Shown here: piece by piece, positions 15,760 through 30,292 of the stretch
Position numbering within the stretch: the first letter of the stretch is position 1
Layout of the letters: the number at the start of each line of letters is the position of its first letter
Origin: Chitinophagia bacterium
Lineage (GTDB): Bacteria > Bacteroidota > Bacteroidia > Chitinophagales > Saprospiraceae
Reading direction: 5' to 3'
Assembly: GCA_009923745.1 (NCBI GenBank)
Contig: RFSX01000005.1
Span: forward strand, 1 to 32,688
Length of the DNA stretch: 32,688 nt
Position numbers and translations under genes: made by a program
The notes under the pieces: model-generated
What the model saw: the letters and a program-made list of their open reading frames with translations, nothing else
The model's database searches: none
Told to the model about the DNA's origin: nothing

Positions 15760-16077
15760 TCAGCGATATACCCAATATCTGAACAGGGGAAAACTTATAA
15801 AGATTCCAATAAAACTGGCAATGATAATCTTTGATATCATGTACTGGAATCCAGCTATATCTGTAAGAATGTAGATCCCGCCCATATTCAAAAGGAGAAC
15901 AAGTCCGCTTACCATGACGTATTTGAAGGCTTGCCCTATGATTTTTTTCTCTGTGCGTTTGAATGCCCAATATCTGAGTGCAAGAAAGCTTGTTATGGCA
16001 CCAAGTGCGCTTGCAATTCCGGCTGAATACACATAGTAAATACCCACATATTCAGTCAATACAAACAAGCTGAGCAT
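15760..16077 (-). CDS. GtrA family membrane protein (N-terminus uncertain)
   Basis: 105 aa; ALGAITSFLALRYWAFKRTEKK and FPLFRYWVYR typical of GtrA. In-frame upstream codons FLRSQITAITATAVD look GtrA-like but have no ATG/GTG/TTG. Confidence 0.75.
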   Translation of the reverse strand: MLSLFVLTEYVGIYYVYSAGIASALGAITSFLALRYWAFKRTEKKIIGQAFKYVMVSGLVLLLNMGGIYILTDIAGFQYMISKIIIASFIGIFISFPLFRYWVYR

Positions 16078-16163
16078 ATCAACGGCTGTCGCTGTGATAG
16101 CCGTTATTTGCGACCTTAAAAAAGAGATGATAAATGGGACTTTATGGCTGATAAGGCTTGGAT

Positions 16164-16625
16164 TTAAAAGAAAGTATGGATAGCATACAAAACCAGAAAG
16201 CTGTAGATACCGGCAAGAGCATCATCGAGCATGACACCCCAGGCACCTTTAATGCGGGTATCCAGGTAACGTATTCCGAGTGGTTTGAGAATATCAAAGA
16301 ATCGAAATAGTATAAAAGCTCCCCAAATATTCATATGGCTAAGCGGGAGCAAGTAAATAGCTATGAGAAGACCTACAAATTCATCGACAACTACCCTGGA
16401 AGGGTCATCACCCCATTCTTTGATGACATGCGATGTAGACCAGGTTCCCAATAAAGTCAATGCTACAATTAAGGCACTGTAAACAGTTATACCCAGGTGT
16501 GTATCTGTAAGTTTAAGGATGTATAAAAAAAGAACGGCTCCCAGCGCACCAAAAGTACCAGGTGCAAAAGGAGCCATTCCTAATCCAAAAACAGTGCTTA
16601 CTGTTTTGTGAAAGATTTTATTCAT
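16164..16625 (-). CDS. Phosphatidylglycerophosphatase A family protein (candidate phosphatidylinositol-phosphate phosphatase)
   Basis: GLGMAPFAPGTFGALGA, VVVDEFVGLLIA, FRFFDILKPLGIRYLD, GAWGVMLDDALAG are PgpA motifs; ATG 16625 (MNKIFHK) overlaps the MIPS stop. Confidence 0.9.
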   Translation of the reverse strand: MNKIFHKTVSTVFGLGMAPFAPGTFGALGAVLFLYILKLTDTHLGITVYSALIVALTLLGTWSTSHVIKEWGDDPSRVVVDEFVGLLIAIYLLPLSHMNIWGAFILFRFFDILKPLGIRYLDTRIKGAWGVMLDDALAGIYSFLVLYAIHTFF

Positions 16626-17946
16626 AATCCAGACCAAGGTGATGAATCAAATCATGACCTCCAAGGTAACGGAGCGTGTTTTCAAGTTTATGCAGTTGTT
16701 TGAATATATCGTGTATAGGCATTCTTCCCTGAGGTGCCTGTGGCGATTTAAGGTAGAATGACAACCATTCTTGGATGCCGTTCATGGATGATCTTTTTGC
16801 AAGATCAAGGAATATGGCCAGATCCAGAACAATGGGCGCTGCCAGGATAGAATCCCTGCAAAGGAAATCAATCTTTATTTGCATTGGGTAGTTGAGCCAA
16901 CCGGATATGTCAATATTATCCCATCCTTCTTTGTTGTCACCTCTTGGCGGGTAATAATTTATTCTAACCTTGTGGTAGAAGTCCTTGTATAATTCAGGAT
17001 ACAATTCTGGTTCAAGAATTTGTTCCAGTACACCCAGTTTGGATACTTCTTTTGTTTTGAAGTTGTCAGGATCGTCAAGCACTTCACCATCCCTATTGCC
17101 CAGGATATTAGTTGAGAACCATCCATCAATAGCCAGTGCCCGCGCTTTCAAGCCAGGAGCCAAAATGGTTTTCATCAGTGTTTGACCAGTTTTGAAGTCC
17201 TTTCCTGCAATCGGCGTATTTGTCATTTTAGCCAATTCTACTAATGCAGGGATATCGCAGCTCAGGTTAGGGGCACCGTTCGCATATGGAATACCCATCT
17301 TAATAGCAGCATAAGCGTAAATCATGCTCGGTGCAATATCCTTTGAGTTGTTTTGAAGTCCTTTCTCGAAGGCAGCTAACGATTTATGAACTCTAGATTC
17401 TTCGATATAGATTTCAGTAGAACCACACCAAACCATCACAAGCCTGTCACATTTGTTATCGGCCTTAAATTTTTTGATATCGTTCATCACTGCTTTAGCC
17501 AAAGCCATTTTTGTTTTTGACTTTTTAACATGCGTGCCGTTAAGTTTCTTGACATAATTCTTGTCAAAAACAGCTTTCATCGGCTTGATCTTTGAAAGAG
17601 GCGCTTTCAATTTATTCAGTAGGTTGATATCCAGAACACCGGCGTGGACAGCAGCCTCATACATATTATCTTTAAAAATATCCCAGCCACCAAAAGCTAC
17701 TTTTTTCAAATCCTGAAGCTCTACAACTTCATTGATAAGCGGTTTATTTACTTTTCCTGTTCGTTTTCCTAATCTCAACCGTCCCATTTGAGAAAGAGAT
17801 CCGATTGGTTGAGCCAGACCTTTATTTACTGCAAGAACCCCTGCTATAAAGGTCGTTGCAACAGCGCCCATACCAGGCAGCAATATTCCGAGTTTTCCCT
17901 TTGCAGGCTCTACCGTTACAGTGTTATTTGTCTGTTTTTTTGCCAT
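16618..17946 (-). CDS. Inositol-3-phosphate synthase (MIPS, Ino1 family)
   Basis: 442 aa; KLGILLPGMGAVATTFIAGV, VFGGWDIF-like AFGGWDIFKDNMYEAA, PYANGAPNLSCDIPAL, GKDFKTGQTLMKTILAPGLKARAL, CRDSILAAPIVLDLAIFLDLA. Confidence 0.95.
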   Translation of the reverse strand: MAKKQTNNTVTVEPAKGKLGILLPGMGAVATTFIAGVLAVNKGLAQPIGSLSQMGRLRLGKRTGKVNKPLINEVVELQDLKKVAFGGWDIFKDNMYEAAVHAGVLDINLLNKLKAPLSKIKPMKAVFDKNYVKKLNGTHVKKSKTKMALAKAVMNDIKKFKADNKCDRLVMVWCGSTEIYIEESRVHKSLAAFEKGLQNNSKDIAPSMIYAYAAIKMGIPYANGAPNLSCDIPALVELAKMTNTPIAGKDFKTGQTLMKTILAPGLKARALAIDGWFSTNILGNRDGEVLDDPDNFKTKEVSKLGVLEQILEPELYPELYKDFYHKVRINYYPPRGDNKEGWDNIDISGWLNYPMQIKIDFLCRDSILAAPIVLDLAIFLDLAKRSSMNGIQEWLSFYLKSPQAPQGRMPIHDIFKQLHKLENTLRYLGGHDLIHHLGLDYE

Positions 17947-17950
17947 TTGT

Positions 17951-18943
17951 TTAAAGTAATTTATGTTGTTTATACCAATTTATCGTTTCTTCCATACCTC
18001 TCTTGAGGTCGTATTGGGCTGCGAAGTTAAAATCTTTTTTTAAGTCTTGCGTATCTACGGCAAAAGACCTTACAAAATACTCCTTTACTTTGTTTCTATT
18101 GAGAATTGGGCTTTGCCCCCTTAAACGACCGGAAAACTCACTTATTGCAGCTATGCCCTTCATTAGAGCTATTGGAATCTTTAGTTTTATTGTTTTAACA
18201 TCGAGCAACTCTTTGACGATGTTATTCAGCTGACTTGCAGGATATACATTGCCATCTGATACGAAGTAGGAACGATTGACAAGATGGCTTTCCACGCCAT
18301 CCATGATGACTCTGGCCAGGTCTTTTACATAAATAAAGCTTTGCAGTTGTTCGTACATGCCTATAGTAACTTCGAGGCCTCTATTTATGGCTTTATAGAC
18401 CTCCAACATATCCATATCCCTTGGCCCGTACACAGCTGTTGGTCTGAATATAAGACTGGGTATCTGTGTATAGGATTCTACGAATTGCTCGGCCTGTAAT
18501 TTTGATTCACCATACCAGGTGGTAGGATGGGGGACAGCATCGCTGTCGAGTACTTGTTTGAATTGAAAGTCGGCTGCTCCGTATGAGGCGAGACTGCTGA
18601 TAAGGACAAATTTACTCGGAACCACCTCTTCTTCAAGTAGAATGCGACAGAATTTCCTTACGTAAGCTGCATTAATCTTGAAATACATATCCCTGTCCAG
18701 ACTGCTTGTGATTCCTGCAGAATGGATGATGTACTGAAAATTATGTGATCTCAGCTGAGCACGCAGCTTATCTTCATTATCGAAGTCGTAATGCAAAAAA
18801 TTAATCCTTGGATCTATGAGGTGGGAGATATTACTGCTTTTCCTGACTCCGGCAAAGACATTAAAGCCTCTTGCTATAGCCTCTTCGACAAGGAAGCTGC
18901 CTACAAAGCCATTGCTGCCCGTTATTAGTATCTTATTGCTCAT
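17951..18943 (-). CDS. NAD-dependent epimerase/dehydratase family protein (candidate CerR-like ketoceramide/ketosphinganine reductase)
   Basis: 330 aa; ILITGSNGFVGSFLVEEAIARGF, LISSLASYG, YGESKLQAEQF, RPTAVYGPRD. Role inferred from operon context. Confidence 0.9.
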   Translation of the reverse strand: MSNKILITGSNGFVGSFLVEEAIARGFNVFAGVRKSSNISHLIDPRINFLHYDFDNEDKLRAQLRSHNFQYIIHSAGITSSLDRDMYFKINAAYVRKFCRILLEEEVVPSKFVLISSLASYGAADFQFKQVLDSDAVPHPTTWYGESKLQAEQFVESYTQIPSLIFRPTAVYGPRDMDMLEVYKAINRGLEVTIGMYEQLQSFIYVKDLARVIMDGVESHLVNRSYFVSDGNVYPASQLNNIVKELLDVKTIKLKIPIALMKGIAAISEFSGRLRGQSPILNRNKVKEYFVRSFAVDTQDLKKDFNFAAQYDLKRGMEETINWYKQHKLL

Positions 18944-20075
18944 TCGATTTTGGCAAGGGGTATTTGTAGATGCGGTAGGTCTTGTATTTAATTCCGTTAA
19001 GTTTTTCAGCAGAGGTCACCATGTCCTGATTGCTTTCGAGAATCCATGATGCTTCACCACCAATCAAATTCCTTTTTCTTGCCTCCAAAATATTTCGTGC
19101 AAAGAATATGGCCTCAATACCTTTTTTACGATATTCTTTCAAAATTCCAGTGGCCAGGACTCGAACGCTTTTTGCCTTTTTCTTTCCCAAAAGCAATTTG
19201 AAAATATTAAAGGGAAACAGTCTTCCTTTTTTGAAGTTAATAGTGATTTCATTGATGTTTGGCAGCGATATAGAGAAGCCGATGGGTTCGCCATCTTGTT
19301 CGGCAATGTAAGCGAAATCCTCATCTGCAAGCATCTTGAGGCCATCCGCCAGGTGTTCAAATTCCTTTTCGGTGAAAGGAACAAAGCCCCAGTTATCTTC
19401 CCATGCTGCATTATATACTTTTTTTATGTGGGCTACTTCTTCTTTAAAGTTTTTAAGGGATATTTTTCGGATGCTGACGCCAGACCTTTTAAGCCTCTCT
19501 TCAATAAGCTGTGACATCTTGATGGACTTATCTGATGCTTCAAAAGAATAGATCATGTACGCATAGAGATCCATTTCTTTTTCCAACCCGATACTTTTTA
19601 AAATCCTGTTATAAAATGGAGCATTGTAGGTCATCATGATTTTTGGAGGCTCTTCAAATCCTTCAACAAGAAAACCTGCTGTTTCATTGGTTGTAAAATT
19701 TGTGGGCCCCATGAGGTAGTCATAATTTTCACCACTTAGCCAGTCCTGGGCTGCCTGCAGCAGGGCTCTGGCCACTTCTTCTGACTCAATGAATTCAAAA
19801 AAACCAAAGAATCCGACATTGGAATTGTGAAATTCATTATACCTGTGGTTTTTAATTGCAGCTATGCGTCCCACAATTTCACGGCCTTCATAAGCCAGGA
19901 AACACTTGGCATCTCCATATTCATAAAAAGGATATTTGCCTTTGTCAAACATTTCCTTTTGAGCAATATAAAGTTCAGGAACATAATTGGGGTCGTCCTT
20001 ATACAGCTCATGAGCGAAATCTATAAATTGTCTGATTTCAGCTTTGCTGGCTGCTTCACGAATTTCGAGAGCCAT
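18933..20075 (-). CDS. GNAT-superfamily acyltransferase-like protein (candidate bacterial ceramide synthase)
   Basis: 380 aa; YEYGDAKCFLAYEGREIVGRIAAIKNHRYNEFHNSNVGFFGFFE, FAYIAEQDGEPIGFSISLPNINE, LATGILKEYRKKGIEAIFF; overlaps the epimerase by 11 nt. Function inferred from context. Confidence 0.85.
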   Translation of the reverse strand: MALEIREAASKAEIRQFIDFAHELYKDDPNYVPELYIAQKEMFDKGKYPFYEYGDAKCFLAYEGREIVGRIAAIKNHRYNEFHNSNVGFFGFFEFIESEEVARALLQAAQDWLSGENYDYLMGPTNFTTNETAGFLVEGFEEPPKIMMTYNAPFYNRILKSIGLEKEMDLYAYMIYSFEASDKSIKMSQLIEERLKRSGVSIRKISLKNFKEEVAHIKKVYNAAWEDNWGFVPFTEKEFEHLADGLKMLADEDFAYIAEQDGEPIGFSISLPNINEITINFKKGRLFPFNIFKLLLGKKKAKSVRVLATGILKEYRKKGIEAIFFARNILEARKRNLIGGEASWILESNQDMVTSAEKLNGIKYKTYRIYKYPLPKSNEQ

Positions 20076-20130
20076 AATGAATGATTTATTGACTTGATTC
20101 CTGCCTTTATATCAGGCTGGTGGTCAGTGA

Positions 20131-21348
<1,218 letters not shown>

Positions 21349-21358
21349 CTATTTAATT

Positions 21359-22294
21359 CTATCTAATAAAATTAAGGGCACTCTTGTACCAATTAGGTAC
21401 AAATTTACGATTTACCAGTAATTCTGTGATAATTAAACCCAGAATCCCGCAAACAATTCCCAAAATCATATCTATTACATAATGATGGGCTGAATACACG
21501 GCTCCGAACCATATTCCGATAAGGCTCAGAGTGAAAAGTGCTGTTAGCCAGTGGTTTTTGAATTTCAATGAATAATATACGAGGAGTAAAGGGAAAGCGG
21601 CATGCATGGAGGGTATGGCTCCAAAGGTATTTGTTCCTTGCGAGTACATGGCCCTGTACATATTTATTCCGAGCATATCATCAAACCTCGCGAGACCGGC
21701 TGCGTTGCACGGAACCGTATTGATCAATTCATTGCCATATTCAAAATAATACCAGGGTGGGGCTGCAGGATAAATGATGTAACCCAAAAAGCCAAAAATA
21801 TTAGCAATGAAGAAGGCGATCCAGAAATCAAAAGCAATCTTAGGCTTTTTTGAAAAGAAGACTATAAAGGCAAAGAATATGGGAAAGGGCACCCAGGTGA
21901 TGTAAAAAGATCCCGCAAATAAATCCAGCAAGGCATGTGCATGTTCCATAAAATATTCATTGACACTGATCCTTGTTCCTTCATGATTGATTCCAAAAAG
22001 CTGGACTTCGAGTTTGTAAAGGTCCTCAATATGAATATTTAATGGATTAATTCTTCCTAATGCCCGTAAGGAGCTGTAGAAAATAAGATATATAAAAAAT
22101 GGACTGAAGAGGACAAAGATTTGCCGGCTGCTTTTATTGAAGAAGAACAAGAAAAGTATCAGCAGGTATAAGTTCAGATCTGAAGTCTGAAAGCCTACCA
22201 GAAGGCCAAACCATATCCAATAGACCACGGTGATTACAGCAAACGCTACAAGCCATGATTTGGAAAATCGTTCAAAATCTACGAATGAAGCCAT
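21359..22294 (-). CDS. PAP2/Aur1-like membrane phosphotransferase (candidate inositol phosphoceramide synthase)
   Basis: 311 aa, multi-TM; AAPPWYYFEYG, GAIPSMHAAFPLLL, AVYSAHHYVIDMILG (Aur1-type H/H/D motifs). Confidence 0.9.
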   Translation of the reverse strand: MASFVDFERFSKSWLVAFAVITVVYWIWFGLLVGFQTSDLNLYLLILFLFFFNKSSRQIFVLFSPFFIYLIFYSSLRALGRINPLNIHIEDLYKLEVQLFGINHEGTRISVNEYFMEHAHALLDLFAGSFYITWVPFPIFFAFIVFFSKKPKIAFDFWIAFFIANIFGFLGYIIYPAAPPWYYFEYGNELINTVPCNAAGLARFDDMLGINMYRAMYSQGTNTFGAIPSMHAAFPLLLVYYSLKFKNHWLTALFTLSLIGIWFGAVYSAHHYVIDMILGIVCGILGLIITELLVNRKFVPNWYKSALNFIR

Positions 22295-22300
22295 GATCTA

Positions 22301-22816
22301 TCAGATCAGAATTTTTTGATAACTAGGAAAATCATTCGATAGATTGTAGCCAAACAGCTCTATATATTCGACTTTTGGAAAGATGCCAAATTCATTGGCA
22401 AACACATAGATATTGTGCAATCTCGCATCCTGGCCATTTATCTTTGTAATTATACTGTAACTCTCATCTTCCATGTGTGCAATAAAAAAGCGCATTTTTA
22501 GATAGGACTCCATTCTGAACTCGAAAGTGTCATTATTGATTTTTTTGGAGCTGTAACCGAATGCCCTTTTCTGAATGGTATTCAGTTGTTGCTTGATGCC
22601 TCCATCTGTGTATTTTATCCAAAACACCTGCATGGGATAGGATTCGTCAACAAAACCATCCCTATTGTCATTCAGGGTATAAACAACAGTATTCATGTTC
22701 AGGTTTCGCTGAATGTAGAAGAGCAGTTTGTCAATATTCTTTGGAGTAGGGTAATATTCAGGTAATCCCACCTCTCCGTGAATGGCAAACTGTGATCTGT
22801 CGAATTCTGTCAGCAT
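22301..22816 (-). CDS. DUF4833-like protein, function unknown
   Basis: 171 aa; LLFYIQRNLNMNTVVYTLNDNRDGFVDESYPMQVFWIKYTDGGIKQQLNTIQKRAFGY resembles DUF4833 as I recall it. Confidence 0.75.
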   Translation of the reverse strand: MLTEFDRSQFAIHGEVGLPEYYPTPKNIDKLLFYIQRNLNMNTVVYTLNDNRDGFVDESYPMQVFWIKYTDGGIKQQLNTIQKRAFGYSSKKINNDTFEFRMESYLKMRFFIAHMEDESYSIITKINGQDARLHNIYVFANEFGIFPKVEYIELFGYNLSNDFPSYQKILI

Positions 22817-22939
22817 AATAATTCTGGTCGGGGCAATTGAAAACCAAATATAAAAAACTGTTATCCAAGTCTGGATGATAATCGTTTTAAATTAGGGTGA
22901 ATTCAGTGACCAAAATTGTGGGTCAGGCCTTCGGTTTCA

Positions 22940-23632
22940 TTAAGTCATGACATTTTTTGCATAGAAAAGCCTGCGCAAAGCTGTCATATTGGCCGAAACA
23001 GCCAAGAAAAATATAGCCCAACTGAAAATAGATATGGTTTCAAAAAGAGGCTGTGGAAGCCAAGGCACTTCCAGTCGATAACCACCCCCTATAATCCCTG
23101 ATACAATACTGGTGGCTATGCTTGCAAATGCTACCAGCACAATCCGTTCAGGCCGCTGCATCAGTCCAACACTGGCGTTTATGCCAAGCCCTTCAGCACG
23201 GGCCCTCGTATAGCTGACCATGATAGAACCAATCATAGAAATAAAGCAGAAGATGGAAGTCAACAGATAGTTTTGCGTAACGGTATAGTAGCAGAACCCG
23301 AAAAACATAACCAATTCGCTGTACCGGTCAATGACTGAATCAAACAAAGCTCCAAAAGGTCTGGCTTGGTTATTAATTCTGGCTAGTCTGCCATCAACCA
23401 TATCCATAGCTCCGGCAAGCAAGATAATGATGCCTGCATAACCAATGAATTTATGATTATCACGGTCTCCTATCTCAGCTCCATATATTAAAACAACTGT
23501 GGATGCAAAGGTCAGGATAAAACCAAACATTGTGACCATGTTTGGTGTTACACCTATCTTGATGAGCAGCTTGACAAAAGGGTCAAGAAATTTATAGGCA
23601 AGTTGCTGCAGTTCTTGTTTGAGTGTGTACAT
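22940..23632 (-). CDS. CDP-alcohol phosphatidyltransferase (candidate phosphatidylinositol-phosphate synthase)
   Basis: 230 aa; exact D-x2-DG-x2-AR-x8-G-x3-D-x3-D motif: DMVDGRLARINNQARPFGALFDSVID. Confidence 0.95.
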   Translation of the reverse strand: MYTLKQELQQLAYKFLDPFVKLLIKIGVTPNMVTMFGFILTFASTVVLIYGAEIGDRDNHKFIGYAGIIILLAGAMDMVDGRLARINNQARPFGALFDSVIDRYSELVMFFGFCYYTVTQNYLLTSIFCFISMIGSIMVSYTRARAEGLGINASVGLMQRPERIVLVAFASIATSIVSGIIGGGYRLEVPWLPQPLFETISIFSWAIFFLAVSANMTALRRLFYAKNVMT

Positions 23633-23784
23633 TTTATGTATATCTGCTTCAATAGCGGATTATGCTCCCATCTTGATTAAAAAACGAATGTGAAATTTAG
23701 GCTTTAATATTTCAAATCTTAAATTGTGCTGCAAATTTTATCAAAAAAATTGCTTGATACTATTTATAATTTAATCTGAAAGAG

Positions 23785-24840
23785 ATGAATTCCAAAATTG
23801 CGGGTCTTGGTTATTATGTTCCAGAGAATGTTGTTACAAACAACGATTTAACACAATATATGGATACCTCGGATGAATGGATTCAGGAACGGACAGGGAT
23901 ACAAGAAAGAAGGTATGCCTCTAAGCATAGTGAATCGACAACATCTATGGCTAAGTTCGCCTCTGAGATTGCCATTGAGCGAGCGGGAATAAGCAAGGAA
24001 GATATCGATTTCATCATCTTCGCTACTTTAAGCCCGGATTATTATTTTCCGGGGTGTGGTGTTTTGTTGCAGCGTGAGTTGGGAATAACAAAAACAGAGA
24101 TTGGTGCCCTGGATATTCGTAATCAGTGTTCTGGATTCGTATACGGTTTATCAGTAGCAGATCAGTTTATAAAGTCAGGTATGTATAAAAACATTCTTCT
24201 CGTAGGCTCTGAAAAGCATTCGATGGGATTGGATTATACCACCAGGGGTCGAAACGTGACTGTAATATTTGGTGATGGGGCTGGAGCAGCTGTCATACAG
24301 CCCGAAGAAGATGATTCTAAAGGTATTCTGACAACGCATTTACATTCTGACGGTACGCATGCAGAGGAATTGGCTTTTATAAGTCCCGGAGCCCATGGAG
24401 GGTATTTCGGTGATACAGAAAAATATGGTTTTCCAGGTGAAGATACGCCGGGAGGACTCTTTGTCACTCAAAAAATGATGGATGAGGGTATGATATTTCC
24501 GAATATGAACGGCCAGCTTGTTTTCAAGAATGCAGTGGTCCGTTTCGCCAGAGTAATCAAAGAAGCCCTTGCAAAGACGGGATTGTCAGGAGATGAGATT
24601 TCTCTGCTTGTGCCTCACCAGGCCAACCTACGAATCAGTCAGTTTGTACAAAAAAGCTTTGGCTTGCGTGATGACCAAGTCTATAACAACATACAGAAAT
24701 ATGGTAACACGACAGCGGCCTCTATTCCTATAGCTTTGACAGAAGCCTGGGAAGAGGGTAAGGTGAATGAAGGTGATCTTGTGTGCCTTGCTGCATTTGG
24801 AAGTGGATTTACATGGGGAAGTGCCTTAATAAGATGGTAG
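23785..24840 (+). CDS. 3-oxoacyl-ACP synthase III family (KASIII/FabH-like)
   Basis: 351 aa; catalytic IRNQCSGFVYGL, VPHQANLRI, YGNTTAASIPIAL, AAFGSGFTWGSALIRW. Confidence 0.94.
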   Translation: MNSKIAGLGYYVPENVVTNNDLTQYMDTSDEWIQERTGIQERRYASKHSESTTSMAKFASEIAIERAGISKEDIDFIIFATLSPDYYFPGCGVLLQRELGITKTEIGALDIRNQCSGFVYGLSVADQFIKSGMYKNILLVGSEKHSMGLDYTTRGRNVTVIFGDGAGAAVIQPEEDDSKGILTTHLHSDGTHAEELAFISPGAHGGYFGDTEKYGFPGEDTPGGLFVTQKMMDEGMIFPNMNGQLVFKNAVVRFARVIKEALAKTGLSGDEISLLVPHQANLRISQFVQKSFGLRDDQVYNNIQKYGNTTAASIPIALTEAWEEGKVNEGDLVCLAAFGSGFTWGSALIRW

Positions 24841-25559
24841 ATATAAAACTGGATATATTGGCAATTGGCGTGCATCCGGATGATGTGGAACTGAGCTGCG
24901 GAGCGACATTACTTAAGCACGTGGACATAGGGTATAAGGCAGGTATTCTTGATCTTACTAAAGGTGAACTCGGCACAAGAGGGACCGCGGAATTAAGACT
25001 CCGGGAAGCAGAAGCAGCGCGGGCCTATGCCGGTATAGAAATAAGAGACAACCTTGGATTGAGGGATGGTTTTTTTGTAAATGATGATGAATCCAAAATG
25101 GCCATTATTCGAAAGATTCGCCAATACAGACCGGATATAGTACTTGCCAATGCCATTCGTGATCGCCATCCGGATCATGGACGTGCAGCACTCCTGACCA
25201 GTGAAAGTTGTTTTTTGGCGGGTCTTTCCAAGATAAAAACCAGCTATCAAGGCAAAGATCAACAGCACTGGCGTCCCAAAAAAGTCTATCATTATATTCA
25301 GGATAATTACATAGAACCTGATATAGTGATTGATATTTCAGGATATCTTGACAGGAAATTTGAAATGATAGCCTGTTTTAAATCTCAATTCTATGACCCC
25401 AATTCCAGGGAGGAGGAAACTCCTATTTCATCCAAGCAATTCATGGATCACCTTAAGGGTAGGGCAGTTGATTTTGGACGTCGTATATCTGTTGAATACG
25501 GTGAGGGTTTTACATCTGAAAGCTATATAGGCGTATCGGATTTGTATAAACTGATTTAA
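24834..25559 (+). CDS. bshB1: Bacillithiol biosynthesis deacetylase BshB1
   Basis: MVDIKLDILAIGVHPDDVELSCGATLLKH (AxHPDD), GELGTRGTAELRLREAEAA, RHPDHGRAA; ATG 24834 overlaps the KASIII stop by 7 nt (ORF track starts at 24783). Confidence 0.93.
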   Translation: MVDIKLDILAIGVHPDDVELSCGATLLKHVDIGYKAGILDLTKGELGTRGTAELRLREAEAARAYAGIEIRDNLGLRDGFFVNDDESKMAIIRKIRQYRPDIVLANAIRDRHPDHGRAALLTSESCFLAGLSKIKTSYQGKDQQHWRPKKVYHYIQDNYIEPDIVIDISGYLDRKFEMIACFKSQFYDPNSREEETPISSKQFMDHLKGRAVDFGRRISVEYGEGFTSESYIGVSDLYKLI

Positions 25560-29229: not shown

Positions 29230-30203
29230 TTAAATAAATCGATTTTGCTTCATCCACTCATCATTATATACTTTATTGATATATCGGGTGCCGGAATCGT
29301 GAAATATAAGCACGGCCATGGAGTTGTCATCAAGCCTATCTTTAAGTTGCAATAGTCCCGCCATGGCTGATCCGGCACTGTAACCCAGAAGAAGGCCTTC
29401 CTCCCTTGCCAGACGCCGTGTCATGACTGCGCCATCTTTATCGCTAACCTTTTCAAAATGGTCTATTATATCAAAATCAATATTTGCAGGTATGATATCT
29501 TCTCCAATACCCTCGGTTATATAAGGATATATTTCTTCCTCATCAAACTCACCCGTTTCGTGATATTTTTTCAATGCACTGCCATAGGTATCAATCCCCC
29601 AGATTTTAATATTGGGATTTTGTTCCTTTAGATATTTTCCTGTTCCTGAAATGGTGCCTCCAGTACCTACACCAACGATAAGGTGTGTGATCTTACCTTC
29701 GGTTTGTTCCCATATTTCTGGTCCTGTCGAATAGTAATGGGCTTCCCGATTGGATAGGTTGTCGTATTGATTGCACCAAACTGAATTGGGCGTTTCACTG
29801 CTTAATTTTTCAGCGACGCTGTAATAGGACCTAGGGTCATCTGCCGGGACATTGGTAGGGCATACTATGACTTCAGCTCCCAGGGCTCTCAGGATATCAA
29901 TCTTTTCTTTCGATTGCTTGTCCGAAGTAGTGAAGATGCAATTATAAGCTTTTACACAGGCTGCAAGTGCAAGGCCCATTCCGGTATTACCTGATGTACA
30001 TCAATTATGGTCCCTCCAGGTTTTAGACGCCCCTCTTTTTCAGCGTCCTCAACCATCTTGATGGCCATTCTGTCTTTTATGGAGTTTCCAGGATTGAAGT
30101 TTTCCATTTTTCCTAAAACAAGTCCGGGAACATCTTTACATATCTTGTTTATCCTGACCAGGGGAGTATTGCCTATTGTTTCCAGGATATTGTTATAAAT
30201 CAT
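29230..30203 (-). pseudogene. Cystathionine beta-synthase/cysteine synthase gene interrupted by a one-base frameshift at ~29998-29999 (ORFs 29952-30203 and 29230-29979)
   Basis: N-part MIYNNILETIGNTPLVRIN...KMENFNPGNSIKDRMA...GGTIID; sequence GAT-GT-ACATCAGGTAATACCGGAATGGGC restores D-[A]-TSGNTGMGLA with one added base; C-part GVGTGGTISGTGKYLKEQNP, GYSAGSAMAGL. Confidence 0.88.
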
Positions 30204-30292
30204 AGAAGTATATTTCGCTGTAAAGATAGGGGAAAACATGCAAAGTGCTGTCTTGCTTGGCATGTATAATCTGTGAGATTTGCTGAATTAGA

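Follow-up and report, generated by a model that had tools for sequence, protein, structure and literature searches.

A conserved nine-gene block of Saprospiraceae that joins ceramide and inositol-lipid genes and very probably serves inositol phosphoceramide synthesis

Most work on the sphingolipid and inositol-lipid genes of bacteria has dealt with gut Bacteroides, which encode the two modules apart. The nine consecutive minus-strand genes at positions 15760–23632 of contig RFSX01000005.1, from a Chitinophagia bacterium of the family Saprospiraceae, raise the question of whether the two modules can be joined in one block, and which lipid that block would make. The window analysed was the complete 32,688-nt contig (C220 of genome G000, an assembly of 1.77 Mb in 285 contigs, with an estimated completeness of 79.5%). 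From the letters alone, it had been predicted to hold an apparently complete operon for the de novo synthesis of inositol phosphoceramide. We found that this arrangement of known enzymes is real, conserved and, as far as could be searched, undescribed (no earlier description of the fused block was found in the openly licensed literature), and its product is very probably inositol phosphoceramide.

The open reading frame (ORF) listing of the window returned nine minus-strand ORFs exactly where the original prediction had placed them, and profile searches (Pfam and NCBIfam) bore out each of the protein families named. In transcription order, these are a CDP-alcohol phosphotransferase (22940..23632; CDP-OH_P_transf, PF01066), a DUF4833 protein (22301..22816; PF16117, 117 bits), a PAP2-family protein (21359..22294; PAP2_3), a serine palmitoyltransferase or SPT (20131..21342; Aminotran_1_2), a tandem-GNAT N-acyltransferase (18933..20075; Acetyltransf_1), an extended short-chain dehydrogenase/reductase (SDR)/epimerase (17951..18943; Epimerase, PF01370), a myo-inositol-1-phosphate synthase or MIPS (16618..17946; NAD_binding_5/Inos-1-P_synth), a PgpA-family protein (16164..16625; PgpA, PF04608) and a GtrA-family membrane protein (15760..16077; GtrA, PF04138, 58 bits). 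The PgpA frame can also be read from a TTG at 16637, in phase with the predicted ATG at 16625. The catalytic motifs were kept across the 25–31 homologues aligned for each enzyme.

The nine genes may be carried on a single transcript. Intergenic distances, in transcription order, are 123, 6, 16, 55, -11, 4, -8 and 86 bp, so that seven of the eight junctions overlap or measure at most 86 bp, and the divergent region between the block and fabH (23633..23784) is a probable promoter region, as the divergent fabH arrangement is kept in the genus and in four other genomes (G512, G509, G480 and G565). It is a distinct possibility that the same pathway is transcribed as two units, the CDP-alcohol phosphotransferase gene by itself and an eight-gene unit starting at DUF4833, which would be compatible with the function favoured here. 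Some 35 nt upstream of DUF4833, the 123-bp gap between these two genes (22817..22939, minus strand) contains TATATTTG, a candidate second promoter that matches the Bacteroidota -7 consensus; an element of this type recurs in the three nearest relatives, at much the same distance, and is absent in others. The -7 consensus was not found in the divergent region 23633..23784 of the window itself. However, a -7-like motif is short and possibly due to chance (expectation of about 10% in a shuffled 152-nt stretch), and in other genera (L115, L116) the two genes overlap or are directly adjacent, while in L083 and L087 they form one gene. Of the predicted operon, the contiguous same-strand block stands, and its being a single unit is called into question by the promoter-like site after the first gene.

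The nine-gene order was identical in 12 of the 14 genomes of the window's genus (window included); in the thirteenth the contig stops before GtrA, and the fourteenth (G007, 78% complete) had no SPT or MIPS matches. Since this order was identical in 12 genomes although the block proteins have diverged to 43–89% identity within the genus, it goes far beyond chance. G015, G512, G509, G480 and G565 share this order, as does G478, where two genes are added; chance clustering was rejected because gene order is kept across genera. The fused block is a conserved nine-gene order in seven Saprospiraceae genera. Of 248 genomes surveyed in the family, 54 had MIPS and 64 had SPT. The two occurred together in 40 genomes, where 14 would be expected (P 5e-18, ignoring phylogeny). 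In 21 of these 40 genomes (11 genera), SPT precedes MIPS on the same strand by no more than 6 kb, and several of the others are broken at contig ends. Among named genomes, a scan with the PAP2-family protein gave two loci only, L019 and L020, both from Saprospiraceae metagenome assemblies. The predicted fusion of the sphingoid and inositol modules is thus real and extends to further genera; it is not special to this organism, as at least 11 Saprospiraceae genera and, in permuted form, two other families have it.

The inositol half of the block resembles that of B. thetaiotaomicron. MIPS is full-length, with both domains (PF07994, 336 bits), and its nearest solved structure is 7nwr, a Bacteroidota-type Inositol-3-phosphate synthase (E 2e-163) that we take to be the structure of BT_1526 published in PMC9246714. 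The CDP-alcohol protein matches the solved phosphatidylinositol-phosphate (PIP) synthases 5d92 and 6h53, and its motif D-x2-DG-x2-AR-x8-G-x3-D-x3-D was conserved in 29 of 29 homologues; it is a probable PIP synthase (PIPS), like BT_1523. The PAP2 protein aligns over 237 residues with yeast AUR1 (9vj3), a remote match (E 6e-18), shares with it the PAP2 fold and the triad of two catalytic His and one Asp, and has HHY..D and PS(M/L)H motifs that 28 homologues keep. The same transfer reaction is probable, so that this protein would be an inositol phosphoceramide synthase (IPCS) of the Aur1/BT_1522 type. The yeast enzyme needs Kei1, and yeast makes phosphatidylinositol (PI) without a PIP intermediate. 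The PgpA-fold protein (144 bits) stands inside an inositol-lipid cluster, the same neighbourhood as the homologues of BT_1525, a type with characterised PIP phosphatase activity (PMC9246714), and it is a probable PIP phosphatase. GtrA (BT_1524-like), which lies in the cluster in most relatives, would have an accessory role.

The two halves might instead be neighbours with separate products, PI on diacylglycerol from one and, from the other, ceramides that are free or carry another head group. The modules are indeed apart in a relative of the same family (G029), in G092, G442 and Bacteroides-type genomes, ceramide-only loci occur in G028 and G510, and inositol genes without a strong SPT match in G050, G450 and G308. 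We nevertheless consider separate products improbable: an IPCS-like gene adjoins SPT or shares its block in every complete fused cluster and links both halves, because the known substrates of IPCS are PI and dihydroceramide, and the co-occurrence of SPT and MIPS is strong.

For the ceramide half, SPT is the firmest enzyme identity of the block, and it is predicted to form 3-ketosphinganine from serine and palmitoyl-CoA. It scored 693.6 bits against the Bacteroidota SPT equivalog NF047600, above the curated cut-off of 640; its nearest solved structures are the serine palmitoyltransferases 3a2b and 8guh (E 1.5e-159), the former being that of Sphingobacterium, and the PLP lysine, catalytic His and substrate-binding Arg (TFSKS, DH and SxxxLIR) are all conserved. 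That it is a KBL/BioF or cysteate acyltransferase paralogue with a non-sphingolipid product, such as a sulfonolipid, is very improbable: all these enzymes are alpha-oxoamine synthases and a cysteate-synthase/cystathionine beta-synthase-like gene lies about 6 kb away (29230-30263; NF053679 368 bits, cut-off 600), but BioF, Kbl and related models gave at most 432 bits, and on these scores KBL/BioF identity was rejected; in the PDB search Sphingobacterium SPT reached 535 bits and the cysteate acyltransferase 28eh 258 bits, and an Aur1-like partner gene is present.

The GNAT protein is a probable bacterial ceramide synthase (bCerS/aca). It is 34% identical to E. coli YghO over 98% of its length, and YghO has been listed as a homologue of the Caulobacter N-acyltransferase CC_1154 (PMC9386255). 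It commonly adjoins SPT in Bacteroidota, outside the Bacteroidales-like genomes examined. Its structure model (pLDDT 54) matched tandem GNAT, FemX and MprF proteins in Foldseek, which supports only the superfamily. Next to it, the SDR carries TGxxGFxG and YxxSK motifs, the latter of the YxxxK form, and completes an SPT-GNAT-SDR triad whose order recurs on a Rubrobacter plasmid; it is a probable 3-keto-(dihydro)ceramide reductase (CerR/epi). A reductase of the BT_0972 (KdsR) type was rejected for the genus, as no match exceeded the background level that E. coli and other controls gave too, which leaves the SDR of the block as the reductase candidate. The CerR of Caulobacter is periplasmic, and acylation comes before reduction there (PMC11087976); at the N-terminus of the window's SDR, MSNKILITGSNGFVG, no obvious signal peptide was seen, as judged from the sequence without running a predictor. 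In an E. coli plasmid locus (L111, NZ_MG591698; also in PMC9386255), yghO lies beside SPT-like, acyl carrier protein (ACP), epimerase and acyl-AMP ligase genes in a ceramide-like cluster.

Taken together, the block in all likelihood encodes the de novo synthesis of phosphoinositol dihydroceramide (inositol phosphoceramide), each reaction being assigned by analogy with characterised homologues. SPT would condense serine with acyl-CoA or acyl-ACP, GNAT would N-acylate the 3-keto base and the SDR would reduce the keto group to give dihydroceramide, with GtrA and DUF4833 as putative accessory parts. In relatives the cluster also includes a fatty-acid hydroxylase, which fits a ceramide product, and ceramide phosphoryl-myo-inositol is reported from Sphingobacterium spiritivorum in work cited in PMC9246714. 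Several observations weigh against this interpretation. The CDP-alcohol protein scored 286.7 bits against NF052561 (PIPSynBT1523; cut-off 350), a model that the L083 homologue passes with 400.7 bits; the PAP2 protein scored 255 bits against the BT_1522 model NF052609 (cut-off 480), under which its counterparts in families f21 and f23 likewise fall (323–350 bits). GNAT homologues were also found away from SPT, the promoter-like site would split the first gene from the rest, and the organism is known solely from the one fragmented, incomplete assembly. Because the two proteins lie below the equivalog cut-offs, they are said here to work like BT_1522 and BT_1523 and are not filed as members, and the end product follows from homology and context. 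The enzyme assignments of the original prediction, SPT included, hold up, and so does its contrast with B. thetaiotaomicron. Its claim of completeness counts in the putative accessory parts DUF4833 and GtrA and leaves the supply of CDP-diacylglycerol and acyl-CoA to genes elsewhere.

In B. thetaiotaomicron the cluster BT_1522-BT_1526 has been characterised, with knockouts of BT_1522, BT_1523, BT_1525 and BT_1526, and the SPT gene BT_0870 lies elsewhere (PMC9246714, PMC8791184). The window has homologues of all five cluster genes (IPCS, PIPS, GtrA, PgpA and MIPS), whereas the B. thetaiotaomicron cluster is without the ceramide module and DUF4833 and has another gene order. With the spt-acp-epi-acs-aca set of Caulobacter and E. 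coli BL21 (PMC9386255, PMC11087976) the window shares SPT, the extended SDR and GNAT; that set is without inositol genes, and the window is without a dedicated ACP or acyl-ACP synthetase and has an SPT of the Bacteroidota subgroup. In sphingolipid-producing Bacteroidota, the ceramide genes have been described as not close together (PMC11334938), in contrast to the adjacent triad found here, which bears on the assignment of N-acylation and keto reduction in this phylum.

The same gene set was found outside the family. Among 396 Bacteroidota genomes, the IPCS family was detected in 15 and SPT in 225; both lay on one strand, 8–9 kb apart, in seven genomes from other families, five of f23 and two of f21 (loci L079, L080, L076, L077, L078, L091 and L092). 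The f21 order is SPT-GNAT-SDR-MIPS-PgpA-GtrA-DUF5686-PIPS-DUF4833-FA_hydroxylase-IPCS, largely the same as that of the window in cyclic terms, and f23 members are without one or two of its genes (SDR and PgpA were not detected in L077, L078, L091 and L092, nor DUF4833 in L076). In the window's family, G478 (L116) has the order DUF5686-PIPS-DUF4833-FA_hydroxylase-IPCS-SPT-GNAT-SDR-MIPS-PgpA-GtrA. The L116 and f21 orders (e.g. L080) correspond to one 11-gene circle opened at different points, an exact circular permutation; the window holds nine of these genes, without DUF5686 and the fatty-acid hydroxylase. Three label changes are required on the SPT and MIPS trees, and in the MIPS tree the window's clade is sister to the split G029. 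The present distribution may have arisen by one fusion followed by permutation, or by two separate assemblies. DUF5686 (850 aa, with a carboxypeptidase-regulatory-like domain), possibly the counterpart of BT_1527, accompanies the ceramide or inositol module in L089, L090, L112 and L034. One Saprospiraceae locus (L127, G570) has SDR-MIPS-PgpA-DUF5686-PIPS-IPCS without SPT or GNAT and resembles a decayed permuted cluster.

Beside the permuted cluster, the link to DUF4833 is a new lead. In most fused clusters DUF4833 adjoins PIPS, and in L083 (8051-9400) and L087 (10722-12032) an extra hydrophobic segment joins it to the PIPS C-terminus in a single gene. Several genomes with split or partial clusters lack it (G029, G092, G450, G288 and G406), and it is also present in a ceramide locus (L131) in which PIPS and IPCS were undetected within the stretch examined. 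Free copies in L077 and L080 start with a signal-peptide-like stretch, whereas those of the window's genus do not. An AlphaFold model built from three sequences (pLDDT 52) gave no Foldseek match below E 0.26, and the literature search found no paper mentioning DUF4833. We tentatively propose, as a speculation that could well fail, that the fused cluster is a single 11-gene sphingolipid unit, of ancient origin (or mobile), whose order was circularly permuted from one Bacteroidota family to another, and that DUF4833 takes part in phosphoinositol-sphingolipid synthesis in a role so far undescribed. It would act as a partner of PIPS or IPCS, in some cases within one protein with PIPS; some lineages would export it, whereas in the window's genus it would seem to stay in the cytosol.

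Free-living Saprospiraceae carry ceramide-backbone and inositol-head genes in one block, which is probably a single genetic unit for a yeast-like lipid. As a genome marker, it points to producers of inositol phosphoceramide among free-living Bacteroidota, outside the gut, and it offers a compact set for heterologous reconstitution, with DUF4833 as a new candidate component.

Two neighbouring genes were also examined. The PIG-L family gene downstream of the divergent fabH (24783-25559, plus strand) is the bacillithiol deacetylase BshB1, for which a role as a glycosylphosphatidylinositol-like enzyme was rejected; its neighbourhood is conserved in the genus. The cysteate synthase/cystathionine beta-synthase-like PALP gene (minus strand) is split into two overlapping ORFs in the window, by an assembly error or a real frameshift, and is intact in relatives (L019:1969-2946).

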